From NCBI GenBank assembly GCA_024278555.1, contig JAJRSX010000010.1, positions 1 to 12,585 of the forward strand: a DNA stretch of 12,585 nt, in the 5' to 3' direction. This document shows positions 2,998 to 10,865 of the stretch, piece by piece (the first letter of the stretch is position 1; each line of letters opens with the position of its first letter). The position numbers and the translations under genes are program-made. Origin of the DNA: a bacterium. Its GTDB lineage: Bacteria; CG2-30-53-67; CG2-30-70-394. The notes below the pieces were generated by a model, which saw only the letters and a list, made by a program, of their open reading frames with translations, ran no database searches and was not told the DNA's origin.

Positions 2998-3585
2998 TTA
3001 CGACCGATCCGCGGCCCACGGCGGCGGGCCGCCGCAGGGCGGGCCACCGGCGCCGCACGGCATCCCCCGACCCCCACACGGCGGACCGGCCACGCCGCAC
3101 GGCATCTCACCGTCGGCCCCCGGCCCCATGAGGGCATCGGGACCGGGACCGCCGCGGCGACCAGGGCCGCACATCCCCTTGAGCCTGTCGCGCTGTTCCG
3201 GCGTGAGCAGGGCGCGGATCTTCAGGAGGGTGGCGAGGTAGTGCCTATGCATCGCCGCCATGGCGGCGCTCACCTTGTCCGACTGGGCCATCACCGCCGC
3301 CTCATCGGGCTCGTCGGCATCGAGGAGGAGACGCATCTCGTCGCGCGCCGCACGCACCGCGTCGCGCAGGAGCGCCGTCTCCTCCCGGGAGGCGGCAACG
3401 ATCGCCTCGATCTTCGCCACGGTGGCGTCGTCGACGCCGAGCTCATCGGCGTGACGGGCGATGCAGCGGTCCGGCCCGTGGGGACCGCCTCCCCTGCAGG
3501 CCTGAGCGGTGACGGGAAGGGTGAGGGTAGCGGCGACAAGCGCCGCGAGGAGGAAAACGGTGGTGCGGTTACGCAGGATCTTCAT
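2998..3585 (-). CDS. Spy/CpxP-family periplasmic protein with Cys-rich tail
   Basis: A 195-residue exported protein, third gene of the sigma operon. Residues 1-29 are a signal peptide (MKILRNR, hydrophobic FLLAALVAATLTL, cleavage at AQA|C). Residues ~35-138 are predicted helical and Ala/Arg/Glu-rich, with the family's LTPEQR motif at 127-132 (the LTxxQ of Spy/CpxP). This is the fold used for periplasmic chaperoning (Spy, CpxP) and metal sensing (ZraP, CnrX). Residues ~139-195 are an unusual Gly/Pro/Cys tail with two 14-residue tandem repeats, MPCGVAGPPCGGRG (161-174) and MPCGAGGPPCGGPP (175-188). The mature protein has seven or eight Cys, suggesting metal or redox binding. The start at 3585 is supported by AAAGGAG six bases upstream; the ATG overlaps the preceding stop as ATGA. 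Whether it is a sensor for the anti-sigma or a chaperone output is open. Confidence 0.85.
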   Translation of the reverse strand: MKILRNRTTVFLLAALVAATLTLPVTAQACRGGGPHGPDRCIARHADELGVDDATVAKIEAIVAASREETALLRDAVRAARDEMRLLLDADEPDEAAVMAQSDKVSAAMAAMHRHYLATLLKIRALLTPEQRDRLKGMCGPGRRGGPGPDALMGPGADGEMPCGVAGPPCGGRGMPCGAGGPPCGGPPPWAADRS

Positions 3586-4049
3586 GGCCTTCTCCTTTCG
3601 AGTGGTGCGGTGGGTGTTCTCTGTTGGGTTGGCTGGGGCGCGTGCCCCGGCCACTCGCCGAGATAGTCGGCGGCGAGGGCCTGGTAGTCGGCCGGCAGGA
3701 CCATGGCGAGGTCGGTAGAGTCGCCGGTCGCCCAGTCGTAGACCGAGAGGATCTCCTCCATCTCCGTGGGCTGCTCATCAACGGTGGCCGCCACCGTGGT
3801 CTGCGGCGGTACCGCGATCGAGCCCGGCCGCACCATCACCACCCAGAGGAGGGTGGCGACCGCGGCGCTCGCCGCCACGTAGAGCGGCGGCCGCACCCGG
3901 CTACGCCGGGCGAGGCGGGCGCGGAGCCGCCGGTCGAAGGCGGCCTGCTCCGCCTCCCCCATGGGAGGGGGAGCATAGGCGTCGTTGAGGCGGCGGATGA
4001 AGGTCGCCTCGTCGGGGGTCAGGTCGGGGGTCGTGTTACGCATGGTCAT
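3582..4049 (-). CDS. Single-pass membrane protein, probable anti-sigma factor
   Basis: A 155-residue protein with about 53 cytoplasmic N-terminal residues (LTPDEATFIRRLNDAYAPPP, then an Arg-rich stretch), one membrane segment at about 54-73 (PPLYVAASAAVATLLWVVMV), and an ~80-residue periplasmic C-terminal part containing VYDWATGD and LPADYQALAADYLGEW. I see no named domain. The assignment rests on topology and position: directly after an ECF sigma gene with an ATGA overlap, and before a Spy/CpxP-type gene with another ATGA overlap. In such operons the cytoplasmic part binds the sigma factor and the periplasmic part receives the signal. The start at 4049 (MTMRN) fits the overlap; 4043 is an alternative. 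The final ~12 residues are read from the Shine-Dalgarno region of the next gene. Anti-sigma function is inferred. Confidence 0.75.
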   Translation of the reverse strand: MTMRNTTPDLTPDEATFIRRLNDAYAPPPMGEAEQAAFDRRLRARLARRSRVRPPLYVAASAAVATLLWVVMVRPGSIAVPPQTTVAATVDEQPTEMEEILSVYDWATGDSTDLAMVLPADYQALAADYLGEWPGHAPQPTQQRTPTAPLERRRP

Positions 4050-4600
4050 GCTCCTCTCTCCCCGGCAGACCGGAGATCGTCGAGTTCGCGCCGCAGGGCG
4101 GTGAGGGCGCGGTGGAGGTGGCTCTTCACCGTCCCCTCCGCCTTGCCCACGATCGCCGCCGCCTCGCGCACCGTGAACCCCTCGCCGTGGACAAGGAGGA
4201 AGCAGTCGCGCTGGGTCCGCGGCAGGCGGCCGAGGGCGGCGGCGATCCGGCGGCCCAGTTCGGGATCGGGAGCGGCGACCTCCGGAGACGGCTCGTTGCC
4301 CGCGGCGACGCGCCACGCCTCACGCACCCGCCGCCAGCGCAGGTAGCTGTGGGCCTGGCGCAGGAGGATCCGATAGAACCAGGTCTCCAGCCGCGCCTCA
4401 TCGCGAAAACGGGGCAACGCCCGGTAGGCGGCCACCAGGGCGTCCTGGGTCACATCCTCAGCCACCGCCGGGTCACCGCCGGTGAGCCGCCAGGCGAGCC
4501 GCACCGCCCGCTCCCGGTGGTCCTCCACAAAGGCGCGAAAGCGCACCGTGCGATCGTCCACCGCGTCCATCGTCATAATCAGCTCGCCGCTCGTCTCCAT
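4046..4600 (-). CDS. ECF-family RNA polymerase sigma factor
   Basis: A 184-residue protein of typical ECF sigma length. Region 2 spans about residues 20-90 (LAWRLTGGDPAVAEDVTQDA, then FRDEARLETWFYRILLRQA, the -10-binding part) and region 4 about 113-170 (ALGRLPRTQRDCFLLVHGEG, then FTVREAAAIVGKAEGTVKSH, the -35-binding helix-turn-helix). There is no region 1 or 3, as expected. Two starts are possible: the ATG at 4600 (chosen, ~17-base leader from the predicted promoter) and an internal ATG at 4576. It heads a three-gene operon with a membrane protein and a Spy/CpxP protein, and an ECF-type promoter immediately upstream implies it transcribes its own operon. It starts 149 bases after the end of the RND transporter gene in the same direction, so read-through from the efflux operon is also possible. 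Confidence 0.93.
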   Translation of the reverse strand: METSGELIMTMDAVDDRTVRFRAFVEDHRERAVRLAWRLTGGDPAVAEDVTQDALVAAYRALPRFRDEARLETWFYRILLRQAHSYLRWRRVREAWRVAAGNEPSPEVAAPDPELGRRIAAALGRLPRTQRDCFLLVHGEGFTVREAAAIVGKAEGTVKSHLHRALTALRRELDDLRSAGERGA

Positions 4601-4623
4601 CCGTGCGCCCTTTCCACCCCCTT

Positions 4624-4653
4624 TAGACGCATGAGAGGGGCAACGGGGTTACA
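4624..4653 (-). promoter_or_regulatory. ECF-type autoregulatory promoter
   Basis: On the minus strand, TGTAACC (4653-4647) and CGTCTA (4629-4624) are separated by 17 bases, the arrangement of many ECF promoters (AAC in the -35, CGTC in the -10). Transcription would start near 4617, giving a short leader before the sigma ATG at 4600. I did not find the same pair upstream of other genes in the window. The match is by eye; the cognate sigma is presumed to be the adjacent one. Confidence 0.72.
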
Positions 4654-4749: not shown

Positions 4750-7700
4750 TCACACCGACCCCACCACCCTTCGCCGCGCCGACTCCAGAAGATCGAAGAG
4801 GACCGGCACCACCAGCAGGGTGAGGAAGGTGCCCACCACCAGGCCACCGATGGCGACGACCGCCAGGGGCGAGAGGCGCTCGATGCCGACCGCCCACTCG
4901 AGGGCGATGGGGACCATCCCCACCGCCGAGGCGGCGGCGGTCATGAGGATCGGCCGGGTGCGCAGGGAGACCGCTTCGAGTAGCGCCTCGCGCACCGAGC
5001 TGCCCCGCTTCATGGCGACGCGGGCGAAGTCGACCAGCAGGATGCCGTTGTTCACGATGATTCCCATCAGCAGGATCATCCCCATGAACGACGGCATGCA
5101 GCCGTGCTTGTTCGCAATCAGCATCGCCCAGCTCGCCCCGATCAGCGCCATGGGCAGGGTGGCGATGATCGCCAGGGCGTCGAGGAAGGAGCGGAAGGTG
5201 ATCACCAGCATGAGGTAGAGCAGCGCCAGGCCGATGAGCAGGGAGCGGCCGAGGCGGCCGAAGGACTCGCCCATCTGCTTGATCTCCCCCTCGTAGGAGA
5301 GGCGGTAGCCGCGCGGCAGCTCCAGCCCCTTGAGCGCCGCCACCACCCGGTCGTGGAGGTGGCTGACGGCGATATCGCCGCGATAGCCGAGGACGTCCAC
5401 CGTGGGCAGGAGCGCCTGGTGGGTCTCGGCGGTGGGGGTGTGACCGCTCACGACCTTGGCGACCGCGGCCAGGGGTACCTTGCTGCCGTCGCGGGCGGTG
5501 ATCCGTAGGGCCGCGAGGTCCTCCGCGTCGGAGCGCTGGTCGGGCCGCAGGCGGACCCAGACGGGGATCGGGGTCTGCCCGCTCACCCGCAGGCGGCCGC
5601 CAGGGGTGCCGCCCACCTGGGCGGCGACCTGGCGCGCCACGTCCGCGGCGGTGAGGCCGTAGAGGCGCGCCGACTCCGGCTGCACCTCCAGCCGCAGCCG
5701 CTGCTCCCGCCCCTGCCACGACCGCTCCACACCGGTGAGGCCGTGGACCGTGCGCAGCCGCGCCATGACCCGGTCGGCGAGGTGGTCGAGGAGGTCCGGC
5801 TCGGGGCCGGTAAGCATCACGTCGACGGTGCCGCGGATGGAAGAGAGCGGCGTGGCGCCGAACTCGGTGACGTTGGTGGTGATGAGGCCGGGGATCCTGT
5901 GGAGCCGGGCCCGCACCCCGGCCTCGATGGCGTAGATGGTGCGGTCGCGGTGGAAGCGGTCCACCAGGTTCACCGTGGTCTGCCCCTGCTGGAGGGTGCG
6001 GGCGGCGCCGAAGGACTTCACCCCCGCCTCCGCCCCTACCACGGTGGAGGTGGACTCGATCCACGCCGGCTCCACCTCCGCCTGCACCGCCTGCTCCACC
6101 GCCGCGGCGAGGCGGCCCATCTCGGTCTCATCAGTGTCCGGCGCCGCCTCGAAGCTCACCAGGAAGATCCCCGAGTCCATGCGCGGCATGAGGTCGCGCC
6201 CGACGAGCGGCATCTGGCGCGCGGAGGCGACGAAGAGCAGCGCCAGAACCACCACCACCACCGCCCGGTGGTCGAGCCCCCAGGAGACGAAGCGGATGTA
6301 AAAGCTACGCACCGGCTCGAGGAGGAAGCGGTCGAAGGGGCGCAGGAGGAAGCCGAGGGGGTCGCGACCGCCCGGCTTCAGGAGCCACGGCACCAGGCGC
6401 GGGATGAGGGTGACGGAGACGATCAGCGAGGCGAACAGCGACACCGACAGGGTGACCGTGAGGGGCCGCAGGACGGTCTGCACGTAGCCGCCGATGAACA
6501 TGATGGGGATCAGGACGATCACCGTAGAGATCGTCCCCGCCATGTCCGCCAGGAGGATCTCGCGGGTCCCGGCCACCGCCACCGTCAGCCCCGACTCGCC
6601 CGCCGTGCGCATCCGCCGCTCGATGTTCTCGATCACCACGATCGCGTCGTCCGCCAGCAGCCCGACGGCGATGATCACCGCGGTGAGGGTCACCAGGTTG
6701 AACTCGTAGCCCATGAGCCGGATCACCGCGAAGGTGAGGAGGTAGCTGAAGGGGAGCGACACCGCGGTAATGAAGGCGGCGCGCGAGTTCCCGAGAAACA
6801 GCGGGATCACCGCCAGGGTCATCAGGACCGCGTCGCGCAGGGCGTCAAGCATGTTGGAGACGGAGATGTGGATCAGCCGGCCCTGGGTGTCCGCCACCGC
6901 CAGCTTCACCATCGGGAAGGCGCCGCGCACCGCCGGCAGGGCGTGGTCGATCGCCTTCACTACCTGGCTGGTAAAGCCGTTGTCGGCGCGCAAAAGCGAG
7001 ATCGCCACCGCCGCCTCGCCGTTGCCGCGGTACAGGGAGGTGGCGTCCTCCGCCCCCCAGTGGACCGTGCCGAGGTCGGCGACCCGCACATGCCCCCCGC
7101 CGGGGATCTCCACCAGGACATCACCGAGGTCGTCCGGGAGGCGGGCGAGGTGGGTGGCGGTGAGGACCAGGCGGTCGCCGTGGCGGTAGACCCGGCCCGC
7201 GGGCAGGGAGAGGTTCGAGCCGAGCAGCGCCGTGGCCACCTGGGCGACGGTGAGGTTGTGCGCCTCGATGCGGTTGCGATCGAGGTCCACTGCCACCTGC
7301 CGCACCGCGCCGCCGAAGACCTCCGCCTCCGCCACCCCGTCGATGGCGAGGAGCTGGTCGCGCAGGGGGTTCTCCGCCAGCCAGCGGAGGCGGCCGAGAT
7401 CCAACCTTGTCCCCGGCGCGGCGGTCACCGCCAGGACCGTCACCGGCCGGGCGGCGTCGGTGATCTTGAAGATCGTCGGCTCCCCCACCCCGTCCGGCAG
7501 CCGGCCGCGCACCCGCGGCAGCTCGTTCGCCACCCGGGTCGCGGCCATGTCGATGTCGTTACCGTACTCGAACTCCGCGGTCACCGCGGAGACCTGGTCG
7601 CGGGATGTAGAGGTCACCCTCCTGACCCCGTCGATCCCCGAGAGGCGCACCTCGATGGGGTGGGTGACCTCGCTCGCCACATCAAAGCTCGCCGCCCCGG

Positions 7701-7863
7701 GCCACTGGGTGACCACCGTCACCATGGGCCGGTTGGTGTCCGGGAAGAGGTTCATCGGCAGGGTGACGAAGGCGATCACCCCGCCCAGGATCACCACCAG
7801 GGTGAAGGCGAGGATCGCGTGCGGCTGGCGCAGGAGCCGCTCGATGAACGACGGGCTGCTCAT
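4750..7863 (-). CDS. RND efflux transporter, HAE1 (AcrB-like) type
   Basis: A 1037-residue inner-membrane pump, the usual RND length; it moves substrates from periplasm or membrane to the outer-membrane channel using proton influx. The first helix is at about 15-35, followed by the conserved MNLFPDTNRP and TQWPGAA segments. Helices 2-6 lie at about 340-490, helix 7 at 533-549, and the last five at about 872-1025. TM4 reads GLLADDAIVVIENIERR with the Asp405-Asp406 proton-relay pair, which places it with HAE1 drug pumps rather than CzcA-type metal pumps. In TM10 the Lys of AcrB (GLSAKNAI) is Asn938 (GIIVNNGI). The start at 7863 overlaps the upstream stop as ATGA, with GAGGTG about seven bases before it. 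It is the last gene of the marR-tolC-mfp-RND unit. Substrate is unknown; drugs, solvents or fatty acids are plausible. Confidence 0.95.
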   Translation of the reverse strand: MSSPSFIERLLRQPHAILAFTLVVILGGVIAFVTLPMNLFPDTNRPMVTVVTQWPGAASFDVASEVTHPIEVRLSGIDGVRRVTSTSRDQVSAVTAEFEYGNDIDMAATRVANELPRVRGRLPDGVGEPTIFKITDAARPVTVLAVTAAPGTRLDLGRLRWLAENPLRDQLLAIDGVAEAEVFGGAVRQVAVDLDRNRIEAHNLTVAQVATALLGSNLSLPAGRVYRHGDRLVLTATHLARLPDDLGDVLVEIPGGGHVRVADLGTVHWGAEDATSLYRGNGEAAVAISLLRADNGFTSQVVKAIDHALPAVRGAFPMVKLAVADTQGRLIHISVSNMLDALRDAVLMTLAVIPLFLGNSRAAFITAVSLPFSYLLTFAVIRLMGYEFNLVTLTAVIIAVGLLADDAIVVIENIERRMRTAGESGLTVAVAGTREILLADMAGTISTVIVLIPIMFIGGYVQTVLRPLTVTLSVSLFASLIVSVTLIPRLVPWLLKPGGRDPLGFLLRPFDRFLLEPVRSFYIRFVSWGLDHRAVVVVVLALLFVASARQMPLVGRDLMPRMDSGIFLVSFEAAPDTDETEMGRLAAAVEQAVQAEVEPAWIESTSTVVGAEAGVKSFGAARTLQQGQTTVNLVDRFHRDRTIYAIEAGVRARLHRIPGLITTNVTEFGATPLSSIRGTVDVMLTGPEPDLLDHLADRVMARLRTVHGLTGVERSWQGREQRLRLEVQPESARLYGLTAADVARQVAAQVGGTPGGRLRVSGQTPIPVWVRLRPDQRSDAEDLAALRITARDGSKVPLAAVAKVVSGHTPTAETHQALLPTVDVLGYRGDIAVSHLHDRVVAALKGLELPRGYRLSYEGEIKQMGESFGRLGRSLLIGLALLYLMLVITFRSFLDALAIIATLPMALIGASWAMLIANKHGCMPSFMGMILLMGIIVNNGILLVDFARVAMKRGSSVREALLEAVSLRTRPILMTAAASAVGMVPIALEWAVGIERLSPLAVVAIGGLVVGTFLTLLVVPVLFDLLESARRRVVGSV

Positions 7864-9053
7864 CGCGCCACCTCGCCGCCCTTGGCGGATGTCGGGGCGG
7901 TTGCCACCGCGGCGACGGGGCTGGAGACCCCGCCGCCCGCGACGACCACCGGGTCGCCGTCGTGGAGCTGCAACAGCACCGACTCGTGGGCGACCACCAC
8001 CCGATCGCCCGCCGCCACATCCCCGTCGACGACCCACCCCTCGTGGGCGTGAAGCCCCACCGCCACCGGGACCACCTTCACCTTTGTCTTCTCCCCGTCA
8101 CCCACGACCTTGAAGAGGCGGCCGTGGCCGTTTGCCTGCATGAGGACCGCGCGCGGCGGGGCGATGAGCGCCCCCTCCACCCGCGCCAGGAGGACGCGCG
8201 CCGCCACCCGCGCGCCGCTCGGCAGGCCGAAGGGGGAGGCGGCGAGGTCCGCCTCGGCCGAGCCGAGGGCGCGGAGATCCAGGGCCGGGTGGACGCGGGT
8301 GATCTGTATCTCCAGCCGCGCCGCGCCGTGGCTGAGGACCACCCGGCTCCCCGGGTGGACCTGCTCCAGGACCGCCTGCGGGAGGTCGACGCGCAGGCGC
8401 TCCCCGTGGCTCACGGTGAGGCGGTACATCGGGTGGCCCGGCTGGCAGAGGTCGCCCGGCTCCGCGAGGCGGGCGGCGATCACCCCATCCGCCGGGGCGG
8501 TGATCCGGGCATAGCCGAGGCGCACCCGCAGGGCGGTGATCTCCCGCTCGAGGGAGGCGACCTGCTGCTCCGCTGCCACCTCGGCGGTGTTCCACTCCTC
8601 CACCTTGGAGGCATCGCTCCCCCCCTCCTTCATCAACCGCTGCTCGCGCGCGTGCTCCGCCGTGGCGCGCGTCGCCGCCGCCTCGGCCGCGGCGAGCTGC
8701 GCCTCCTTGGCGGCGATGGTCGCCTCCAGCTCACGGGTGTCGACGCGGGCGAGGACCTCGCCCTCGTGGACCCGCACCCCCTCGCGCGGCCCCATCTCCA
8801 TCACGGTGCCGGAGATCCGGCCGGTGAGGGTGACCTCCCGGCTTCCGGTGAGGGTGGCCAGGGCCGGGAAGCCGCGGGTGGCGACCCCTGTCCGTACCGG
8901 CGCCACATGCACCGCCCACGCCGCGGGGGCCGGCGGCGGGACCGCCGCCAGCTCGTGGACGCGGCGCATGCGCAACCGCACCAGGGCGACCGCCACGACC
9001 ACCACCACGAGGACAATCAGGGAGACACGGAGACTCGTTTTCAGCTTCGACAT
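7860..9053 (-). CDS. RND efflux membrane fusion protein (periplasmic adaptor)
   Basis: A 397-residue adaptor that bridges the inner-membrane RND pump and the outer-membrane channel. Residues 10-26 are a single membrane anchor (SLIVLVVVVVAVALV), with no lipobox Cys. Then come the first lipoyl half (about 75-105, GRISGTVMEMGPREGVRVHEGEVLARVD), an Ala/Glu-rich coiled-coil hairpin (about 106-180), the second lipoyl half (182-210, ARITAPADGVIAARLAEPGD), a beta-barrel (about 212-295, including HPALDLRALGSAEADL) and a membrane-proximal domain (297-370). A ~25-residue Ala/Val/Ser-rich tail ends the protein. The start at 9053 has a good GGGAG six bases upstream; the open frame continues to 9182 but that extension overlaps the tolC-like gene and lacks support. 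Its stop overlaps the RND start. Confidence 0.93.
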   Translation of the reverse strand: MSKLKTSLRVSLIVLVVVVVAVALVRLRMRRVHELAAVPPPAPAAWAVHVAPVRTGVATRGFPALATLTGSREVTLTGRISGTVMEMGPREGVRVHEGEVLARVDTRELEATIAAKEAQLAAAEAAATRATAEHAREQRLMKEGGSDASKVEEWNTAEVAAEQQVASLEREITALRVRLGYARITAPADGVIAARLAEPGDLCQPGHPMYRLTVSHGERLRVDLPQAVLEQVHPGSRVVLSHGAARLEIQITRVHPALDLRALGSAEADLAASPFGLPSGARVAARVLLARVEGALIAPPRAVLMQANGHGRLFKVVGDGEKTKVKVVPVAVGLHAHEGWVVDGDVAAGDRVVVAHESVLLQLHDGDPVVVAGGGVSSPVAAVATAPTSAKGGEVAR

Positions 9054-9114: not shown

Positions 9115-10419
9115 TCACGGCGCCGGCTCGCGAGCGGCGTACGCCGCCGGAGCAAGCCCGAGGGCGAGGCGGTAGTCGTCATCCGCCGCCCACCAGCCGC
9201 TCAAGGCGTCGGTAAGAGAGGCGCGAGCACGCGCCAGCGCCGCCTCCGCGTCCACCAGATCGGCGGCGGAGAGCCGGCCCACGGAGAACCGGGAGCGCTG
9301 GATCACCGCGGTGCGCGCCGCCGCGTCGAGTCCGTCCACCGCCGCCTGGTAGCCATTACCCGCCGCCACCCAGCGACCACGGGCCGCCGCCACCTCGGCA
9401 CGGGCAGCCGCCTCGACCTCGGCAACGCGGGCGCGGGCCCCCACCACCCCCGCTGCCGCCGCCTCCACCTGACGCCGCCGCCGGCCGCCATCGAAGAGCG
9501 GCACGCTCGCCTCCACCTCCGCCTGCCAGTGGTCGCCGGTCGCCCCCTCCCACGCCTGGTCATGACGGATGGTCGCGGCCAGCGCCACCACCGGCAGGCG
9601 GGTGGCGCGCGCTCCCCGGAGACGTGCCTTGGCCGCAGCCACGCGCGCCCGGGCGGCGACCACGTCCGGGCGTGGCGGCACCTCCGGTCTCGGGGCCTCG
9701 GGCGCCCACGGCGCCACCACCACCTTCGCGGTGTAGTCGGGTGCATCGAGCAGCGCGGCGATCTTGGCGCGCGCCGCCGCCTCATCGCCATCGAGGGCGG
9801 CGAGGCGGCCGCGCACCGCGGCCACCTCCGCCCGCAGGCGCACCGCCTCCACCTCCGGCAATCGGCCCACATCCACCTTTGCCTGGGCCACGCGGGCCTG
9901 CTCCTCCAGGGCCTCCTGCTGGAGCACCAGGGCGGTGCGCTCACCGGCGATCCGCTGCAGGTCGTGGTAGAGGCGGGCCGCACGGTTCAACAGGGTGAGG
10001 CGCACATCCTCCCTCCCCGCGGCCGCCGCCCGCTCGCCGCCGCGCGCGGCGGCGAAGCCGGCGCGCAGGGAGCCGTTCACATCGACCGGCAGCCGCAGGT
10101 CGACGCCGTAGGTGGCGATGTTGTCGTCGAAGGCCATCGCGCCGAGGTCCACCGGCGGCGCGATGGGCTCCACGAGCTGCGGATCGTCGGCGTGGCGGTC
10201 GCTCCCGAAGAGGGTCACCTCACCCCAGTAGCGGCCGCGCGCCGCCCGCCGGCTCGCCCGCGCCGCCGCCGACACGGCCTCTGCCGCCCGCAGGGCCGGG
10301 GCCCGCTGCTCCACCTGCGCCAGCAGCGCCGAGAAGCTGTCCTCCTTTGCCGCGCCCCGGGCGACCGCCGGCGTGGAGAAGAGAAGAGAGATCACCAGAG
10401 ACAGCGTAAGCATTCGCAT
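9115..10419 (-). CDS. TolC/OprM-like outer-membrane efflux protein
   Basis: A ~434-residue outer-membrane channel subunit with a signal peptide (LTLSLVISLLFSTPAVARGA, cleavage near AVA). The rest is the two-fold repeated outer-membrane efflux (OEP) architecture: long Ala/Arg/Glu-rich helices interrupted by beta segments (YGVDLRLPVDVNG and VEASVPLFDGGRRRRQVEAA, the latter the usual VPLFDGG motif) and a late GRLSAADLVDAEAALARAR segment. It has the normal family length. The gene follows marR with an overlap: the marR TGA shares a base with the ATG at 10419 (TGATG). A GTG at 10422 is an equally possible start (GTGA overlap). A G-rich run just upstream can act as ribosome site. It is 61 bases upstream of the adaptor gene and would complete the tripartite pump. 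Confidence 0.9.
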   Translation of the reverse strand: MRMLTLSLVISLLFSTPAVARGAAKEDSFSALLAQVEQRAPALRAAEAVSAAARASRRAARGRYWGEVTLFGSDRHADDPQLVEPIAPPVDLGAMAFDDNIATYGVDLRLPVDVNGSLRAGFAAARGGERAAAAGREDVRLTLLNRAARLYHDLQRIAGERTALVLQQEALEEQARVAQAKVDVGRLPEVEAVRLRAEVAAVRGRLAALDGDEAAARAKIAALLDAPDYTAKVVVAPWAPEAPRPEVPPRPDVVAARARVAAAKARLRGARATRLPVVALAATIRHDQAWEGATGDHWQAEVEASVPLFDGGRRRRQVEAAAAGVVGARARVAEVEAAARAEVAAARGRWVAAGNGYQAAVDGLDAAARTAVIQRSRFSVGRLSAADLVDAEAALARARASLTDALSGWWAADDDYRLALGLAPAAYAAREPAP

Positions 10420-10865
10420 CACGTCCCCCCCTCAAGGTTCGCCCGTACCCGCTCCAGGATGTGCATCACCTGGGTGATCTCCCATGGCTCGATCCCCGCG
10501 TAGGCCTGCCCGAGGACCATCCGTCCGTGACGGGAGACGTGCCGCCAGACCTGGCGTGCCTCATCCGTGAGGACCACCCGCTTCACCCTGCGGTCCGTGG
10601 GATCCGGCTGCCGCACCACCCAGCCGTCCCGTTCCATCCGGTCGACGAGACGCACCGCCGAGGCCGGAGTCACGGCGAGGCGCGCCGCGAGCTCCGCCTG
10701 GGGCAGCGGCCCGAGGGCGATGAGATGAGCCAGGGCAATGAACTGCGCCGGGCTCATTCCGCTCCCGGCCAGGCGCCGCTCCAGGGCGGCGGTGAAGGCA
10801 CGGAAGGTGAGGGCGCAGTGGAAGCCGAGGGAGTCGTGGGGGTCGAGTGGCGGAGTCGTAGACAT
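10419..10865 (-). CDS. MarR-family transcriptional regulator
   Basis: A 148-residue winged-helix regulator. Helix H1 lies at about 12-35, and the wHTH at about 37-105 reads MSPAQFIALAHLIALGPLPQ, then LAARLAVTPASAVRLVDRME, then the wing RDGWVVRQPDPTDRRVKRVV, which carries the family's DxRxK/R wing motif. C-terminal dimer helices follow. MarR proteins usually repress an adjacent efflux operon and release DNA on binding a phenolic or hydrophobic ligand. Here the gene is first in the operon, its stop overlaps the tolC-like gene, and a palindrome lies 19 bases upstream of its ATG. Repression of its own operon is therefore the natural inference. AAAGG about ten bases before the ATG is the likely ribosome site. 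Confidence 0.93.
   Translation of the reverse strand: MSTTPPLDPHDSLGFHCALTFRAFTAALERRLAGSGMSPAQFIALAHLIALGPLPQAELAARLAVTPASAVRLVDRMERDGWVVRQPDPTDRRVKRVVLTDEARQVWRHVSRHGRMVLGQAYAGIEPWEITQVMHILERVRANLEGGT

Follow-up and report, generated by a model that had tools for sequence, protein, structure and literature searches.

In the CnrYXH system of Cupriavidus metallidurans, the ECF sigma factor CnrH, the membrane anti-sigma factor CnrY and CnrX, a metal sensor of the Spy/CpxP fold, together control an RND cation pump. The genes are arranged in the order Y-X-H and are followed by cnrCBA, CnrY wraps the sigma factor with two helices, CnrX is anchored in the membrane, and the residues H42, H46, E63 and H119 of CnrX are metal ligands. 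Among other members of the Spy/CpxP family, CpxP feeds back on the sensor with which it is co-regulated, and in E. coli the spy gene belongs to the output of BaeR and CpxR. For CnrX, Met123 has also been described as a metal ligand (PMC7689651). The same gene order as in the locus considered here is found in the RpoE8 operon of Azospirillum brasilense Sp7 (AMK58_RS24945-24955; PMC12826043), where sigma factor, anti-sigma factor and Spy-like genes are likewise joined by two 4-base overlaps, the Spy-like gene is annotated as 'periplasmic heavy metal sensor' and no RND pump lies within the 30 kb read.

The window analyzed here, a stretch of 12,585 nucleotides, is the entire contig C114 of a bacterial genome of 3.06 Mb (G000). 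A first-pass annotation made from its letters alone had pointed out three genes joined by two ATGA overlaps in the order sigma factor, anti-sigma factor and sensor-like protein, with an ECF-type promoter just upstream and an RND efflux operon immediately before them on the same strand, and all of these features were found again (Table 1). An Rfam scan of the window returned no match.

Table 1. Features of the sigma/anti-sigma/Spy triad and of the neighboring RND operon in the window.
Feature	Position	Strand	Evidence and remarks
ECF-type promoter, TGTAACC-N17-CGTCTAA	4623..4653	-	Ahead of the sigma factor gene; core GTAACC from 4652
ECF sigma factor (184 aa; other possible starts at 4576 and 4570)	4046..4600	-	Pfam Sigma70_r2, r4_2; orthologues in 34 further loci
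Putative membrane anti-sigma factor, 155 aa	3582..4049	-	ATGA overlap with sigma gene; transmembrane segment; charge bias; tail motif
Spy/CpxP/CnrX-family periplasmic protein, 195 aa	2998..3585	-	PF13801, PF07813; AF2 model
RND permease, drug (HAE) type; neighbor outside the conserved module	4750..7863	-	ACR_tran 3e-209; motif LADDAIVVIEN
RND periplasmic adaptor; neighbor	7860..9053	-	TIGR01730 RND_mfp above cut-off
Outer-membrane efflux protein; neighbor	9115..10422	-	OEP PF02321 1.9e-38
Regulator of the MarR family; opens the pump operon	10419..10865	-	MarR_2 5.7e-17; position

The triad is encountered well beyond the window. A congeneric genome (G001) carries two copies, and a scan of named genomes revealed the same three genes in a 'Deltaproteobacteria' genome (locus L006). 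A profile built from four anti-sigma sequences, those of the window, the two G001 copies and L006, detected homologues in 38 of the 377 genomes of the phylum to which L006 belongs. In every one of the 32 loci examined in that phylum the anti-sigma gene has the sigma factor gene as its immediate upstream neighbor and a Spy-like gene as its immediate downstream neighbor, and the same order is kept in both G001 copies, so that the three genes co-occur in all 34 further loci in which homologues of the 155-residue membrane protein were compared, as the first-pass annotation had proposed to do. Counting the window, there are 35 modules, and in most of them the anti-sigma start overlaps the sigma stop as ATGA. 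Since the loci were found through the anti-sigma gene, a sigma factor neighbor is partly to be expected, while the Spy neighbor is not. Judged from gene content and order, the triad is more than a chance cluster.

Its distribution is nevertheless patchy, since a deeper anti-sigma profile gave no match in six further genomes belonging to the window's class and a single weak one among about 110 others from the domain. Searches of plasmids with the anti-sigma and with the Spy protein returned no match, and plasmid-borne ECF relatives with 30-40% identity are general ECF factors with no Spy partner listed in the four neighborhoods read. Most forks of the sigma factor tree are open, CnrH sits on a very long branch, and the window sigma factor is not placed firmly within the set of the other phylum, so that horizontal transfer is only suggested. 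Clustering of the flanking genes yielded only scattered families, including an SDR family in six loci, and one single-linkage artefact.

As one of two options, the first-pass annotation had tied the module to the adjacent RND pump, a tie that is not conserved, while its description of the pump as drug-type rather than CzcA-type agrees with the best NCBIfam match of the permease, a multidrug permease subfamily. Control of this pump by the module, in the way CnrYXH controls CnrCBA, would be in keeping with their adjacency on one strand across a gap of about 150 bp and with the lack of a terminator-like site between the pump operon and the sigma factor gene, which makes read-through from the pump into the sigma gene possible. 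However, the pump genes lie upstream of the triad promoter, which is directed away from them, the window contains no second copy of this promoter on either strand, and the pump operon opens with a MarR gene whose product is likely the pump's own control. Within the flanks, which were examined up to 10 kb on either side (27 of the 32 loci in the other phylum being at least 10 kb long), an RND permease gene was found near one of the 34 other loci, on the opposite strand and about 5 kb off, and an adaptor-like gene likewise near one. Conversely, no homologue of the pump was detected at E 1e-100 in G001, which carries two triads, while the class relatives G002 and G006 have pump homologues (45-48%; 46% for G002) and no triad. 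Because of these separate distributions and the pump operon's own MarR gene, the adjacency is local to the window genome. Pump control was rejected as the main function of the triad since the two are separately distributed; as an explanation of the locus it is now unlikely, with only a slight chance of being correct.

The third gene of the triad encodes a protein with Pfam matches to Metal_resist (PF13801; 3.8e-12, 46.9 bits against a cut-off of 29.2) and LTXXQ (PF07813; 8.2e-9, 36.5 bits against a cut-off of 24.3). In its AF2 model the pLDDT exceeds 90 across a helical hairpin, for which Foldseek lists CnrX and NccX on top, followed by Spy, CpxP and ZraP, with probabilities near 1; as the E values of these matches are 0.02-0.1 and their VIA Z of 9-11 is within the range of unrelated helical hairpins, the fold is assigned chiefly from the Pfam and profile matches. 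The protein thus shares family membership and hairpin with Spy, CpxP and ZraP, but differs from them in being linked to a sigma/anti-sigma pair instead of a histidine kinase and in belonging to a family with variable Cys/His-rich or Cys-repeat tails. Common to this family are the hairpin and an LTPEQR motif, while the C-terminal ends range from no extension through a Cys-repeat segment, whose aligned cysteines occur in about 18 of 32 proteins and which in L006 gives a sub-threshold match to Pfam Cys_rich_FGFR, to Cys/His-rich tails in the window, G001, L063 and L089. The first-pass label of a Cys-rich Spy-type protein therefore holds for the family assignment and for the PCG-rich tail of the window protein, but because the ends vary, 'Cys-rich' does not define the family. 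Read from the sequences, the N-termini look like signal peptides with A-x-A-like ends, TAQA in the window and in G001, rather than like lasting anchors.

Several further Spy-like genes were noticed. In nine loci (L062, L065, L072, L075, L078, L079, L080, L082 and L084) a second one is located upstream beside the sigma factor gene, in L065 on the opposite strand, which places Spy genes at both ends of some modules. The tails of the L089 and L063 proteins are long Cys/His-rich repeats (GGCKHK... and GADCPLH..., respectively), metal-binding in appearance. The window genome itself encodes a second Metal_resist protein on another contig (L110, 1423-1950 of G000:C192) with the Cys-rich N-terminal stretch CGPGGCSIGGCSMGGG; its gene is accompanied by an ABC transporter ORF on one flank and by a glutaredoxin-like ORF on the opposite strand, and no sigma or anti-sigma gene was seen beside it.

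Comparison with the Cnr reference sequences, taken from pMOL28, delimits the likeness to CnrYXH that the first-pass annotation had claimed. As in CnrYXH and NccYXH, an ECF sigma factor, a predicted anti-sigma factor with one transmembrane segment and a Spy-fold periplasmic partner are encoded together, and homology of the Spy family to CnrX extends over 127 columns (HHalign probability 85%, E 6.5e-6). In contrast, the gene order differs and the pump is upstream, this pump is not of the CzcA/CnrA type and its linkage is not conserved, the anti-sigma profile has no detectable similarity to CnrY (HHalign probability 0.1, one column), the Spy protein is apparently secreted rather than anchored, and the CnrX residues H42, H46, E63, H119 and M123 align with I42, A46, V63, T119 and I123, respectively. 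In its general logic the triad thus resembles CnrYXH, without being a member of that system.

Since none of the five ligands is kept where the sequences align, sensing of metal in the manner of CnrX is not supported. The Spy protein might still be a metal or thiol sensor of its own sort, binding a thiophilic metal through a Cys/His-rich tail or through C41, H45, H113 and H115 and signaling to the anti-sigma factor as CnrX does, without a pump of its own. Besides the homology to CnrX, C41 and H45 have the i,i+4 spacing of CnrX H42 and H46, onto which they would fall after a shift of one residue, columns 45, 113 and 115 have histidine more often than any other residue (19, 17 and 15 of 32, respectively), and the Cys- or His-rich tails of some members are a hint at metals. 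However, even with that shift H119 and M123 would have no counterpart, the tails are variable and many members have none, and the genes flanking the modules include no recurrent family related to metals. We consider a metal or thiol sensor unlikely, although by no means negligible.

The middle protein is a putative anti-sigma factor for whose family neither Pfam nor NCBIfam has a model, in agreement with the earlier remark that it is unrecognizable by sequence. The window protein has no match above cut-off in either collection, and at E 0.01 in Pfam 19 of 20 members have none and the other a weak one to DUF2749. Six of the 20 match NF038083 (CU044_5270 family) weakly, with 7e-5 at best, and the best NCBIfam profile of the sigma factor is SigE-fam_strep (TIGR02983; 7e-33, below its cut-off), both being too weak to name the window proteins; to our knowledge, the definitions of these two families include no Spy gene. 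The class I zinc anti-sigma motif HxxxCxxC is absent, the window protein containing no cysteine at all.

Members of the family are composed of an N-terminal cytoplasmic segment, one transmembrane segment (the single hydrophobic stretch at residues 55-73 in the window protein, with arginines ahead of it), a variable linker and a periplasmic tail, and in nearly all of the 35 members basic residues are more numerous before the membrane segment than after it. Conservation is highest in the N-terminal segment (consensus LxxxDxxFVxRLxxxYAPPPxxxAxRxAFDxxLxxRL; mean information 1.79 bits) and in the tail (LPxDYxAIASLFLD, 2.26 bits; LPADYQALAADYL in the window protein), compared with 1.46 bits for the membrane segment and 1.06-1.10 bits for the linker. 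The tail core P-x-[DEA]-[YW]-x-x-[LI] is present in 34 of 35 members and is found no more than 8 residues from the C-terminus in 28, the window protein being an exception in which about two dozen residues follow the motif. The AF2 model is poor (pLDDT 41) and at this low confidence has two N-terminal helices, 12-23 and 32-49.

The RpoE8 operon of Azospirillum departs from the triad in several respects. Its anti-sigma factor is not homologous to the window family (profile probability 0.1%), carries no tail motif and has no detectable similarity to CnrY; its Spy-like protein has a probable membrane anchor, and its sigma factor is only 28% identical to that of the window. Since the RpoE8 anti-sigma factor resembles neither the window family nor CnrY, the sigma/anti-sigma/Spy architecture recurs with unrelated anti-sigma proteins in CnrYXH, in the RpoE8 operon and in the window triad. 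On A. brasilense p2 (L106, 24943-33277), an RND adaptor and permease are located about 1.4 kb ahead of another pair of ECF sigma and hypothetical genes, for which no Spy gene is listed.

Evidence on what the sigma factor controls comes from its promoter. The sigma factor has Pfam Sigma70_r2 and r4_2 domains (2e-13 and 1.4e-15), and the promoter ends 22 bases ahead of its first ATG. The exact core GTAACC-N17-CGTCTA occurs once in the window genome and once in G001, each time directly upstream of the sigma factor gene, and is absent from the remaining six of the eight related genomes searched. In the wider set (561 kb of module loci, both strands), the pattern GTAACC-N17-SGTCNAA has 14 matches, all upstream of module sigma or Spy genes: 12 lie within stretches defined beforehand upstream of sigma or spy, one just upstream of the sigma ORF in L069 and one at the start of the second Spy ORF in L080. 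Copies of this pattern were recovered from no more than roughly one locus in three, and the others may use variants. Matches with one mismatch were about as frequent as those of a reversed control pattern, for which reason only exact matches were used and a wider regulon drawn from the former was rejected. In L006 two copies with the same spacing precede sigma and spy, respectively, which fits a regulon consisting of the module itself. Given such copies ahead of sigma or spy, transcription of the operon by its own sigma factor is probable, as is separate transcription of spy by it in some species. Sequence shows the triad to be a single operon-like unit behind an ECF promoter, kept with the same promoter in distant bacteria without the pump.

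The reading we favor, tentatively and at somewhat less than even weight, is that the triad is a self-contained, autoregulated and pump-independent ECF switch for envelope stress, probably periplasmic protein or metal stress. The conserved order, the ATGA overlaps, the promoter and the conserved N-terminal and tail regions of the anti-sigma factor are counted in its favor, as are the second Spy-like genes ahead of sigma, the confident hairpin model and the secreted-looking Spy N-termini. The first-pass annotation had proposed sensing tied either to a different kind of pump or to general envelope stress, and envelope stress is the better half of that proposal, the pump being the half that fails. 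In such a switch, the short N-terminal segment of the anti-sigma factor would hold the sigma factor at the inner membrane, and the secreted Spy protein would contact the conserved tail or shield it from a protease. Stress would then pull the Spy protein off or alter its state, thereby releasing the sigma factor, which would transcribe its own operon, raise the supply of Spy protein and so reset the system. This would be a feedback loop of the chaperone type, by analogy with RseB for RseA and CpxP for CpxA. The Spy protein probably acts on the conserved tail, although this tail could equally be a protease signal, and co-variation at the sequence level is modest (Spearman 0.26-0.45, 28 loci, with shared ancestry left in).

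Alternatively, the Spy protein might be output only, that is, a chaperone made under stress, while the anti-sigma factor would sense through its own tail and be cut by regulated proteolysis. In line with this, spy has its own promoter copy in L006 and in several other loci, the tail motif is C-terminal in most members, as expected of a protease or PDZ ligand, and spy of E. coli offers a precedent for an output gene. Yet the strict linkage directly behind the anti-sigma gene in 34 of 34 loci exceeds what an output gene would need, and the motif of the window protein is followed by further residues. We regard an output-only Spy protein as improbable, albeit worth keeping in mind. Extending the autoregulated switch to an unnamed and widespread ECF switch class, in which a free Spy chaperone docks on the anti-sigma tail and its occupancy, free as opposed to busy, sets sigma activity independently of any pump, would be going further, and this generalization seems to us doubtful rather than probable.

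For the anti-sigma family, which had no earlier description, the comparison supplies an evident genetic partner as well as a short, conserved tail that lends itself to experiments with a peptide. Spy-type signaling through sigma factors thereby becomes directly testable beyond the nickel/cobalt case, with the caution that a neighboring pump should not be read as the target.

Two inverted repeats and a small gene lie in the remainder of the window. At 2859-2940, between the convergent cytochrome c and Spy genes, a near-perfect inverted repeat (40-nt arms, 93%, 2-nt gap) that is the sole copy in the genome is possibly a two-way terminator, although it has no T run. A 23-nt inverted repeat (96%, 4-nt gap) at 1475-1524 is a possible operator between a DsbD/CcdA-like gene and a divergent gene at 1609. 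The latter (1609-1977) encodes a secreted-looking protein of 122 residues without a Pfam or NCBIfam match that contains the Cys/His-containing stretch CYLDHAARGAKHKQCALNC, and it directly precedes the cytochrome c gene (1984-2736), whose product has two haem-binding motifs.
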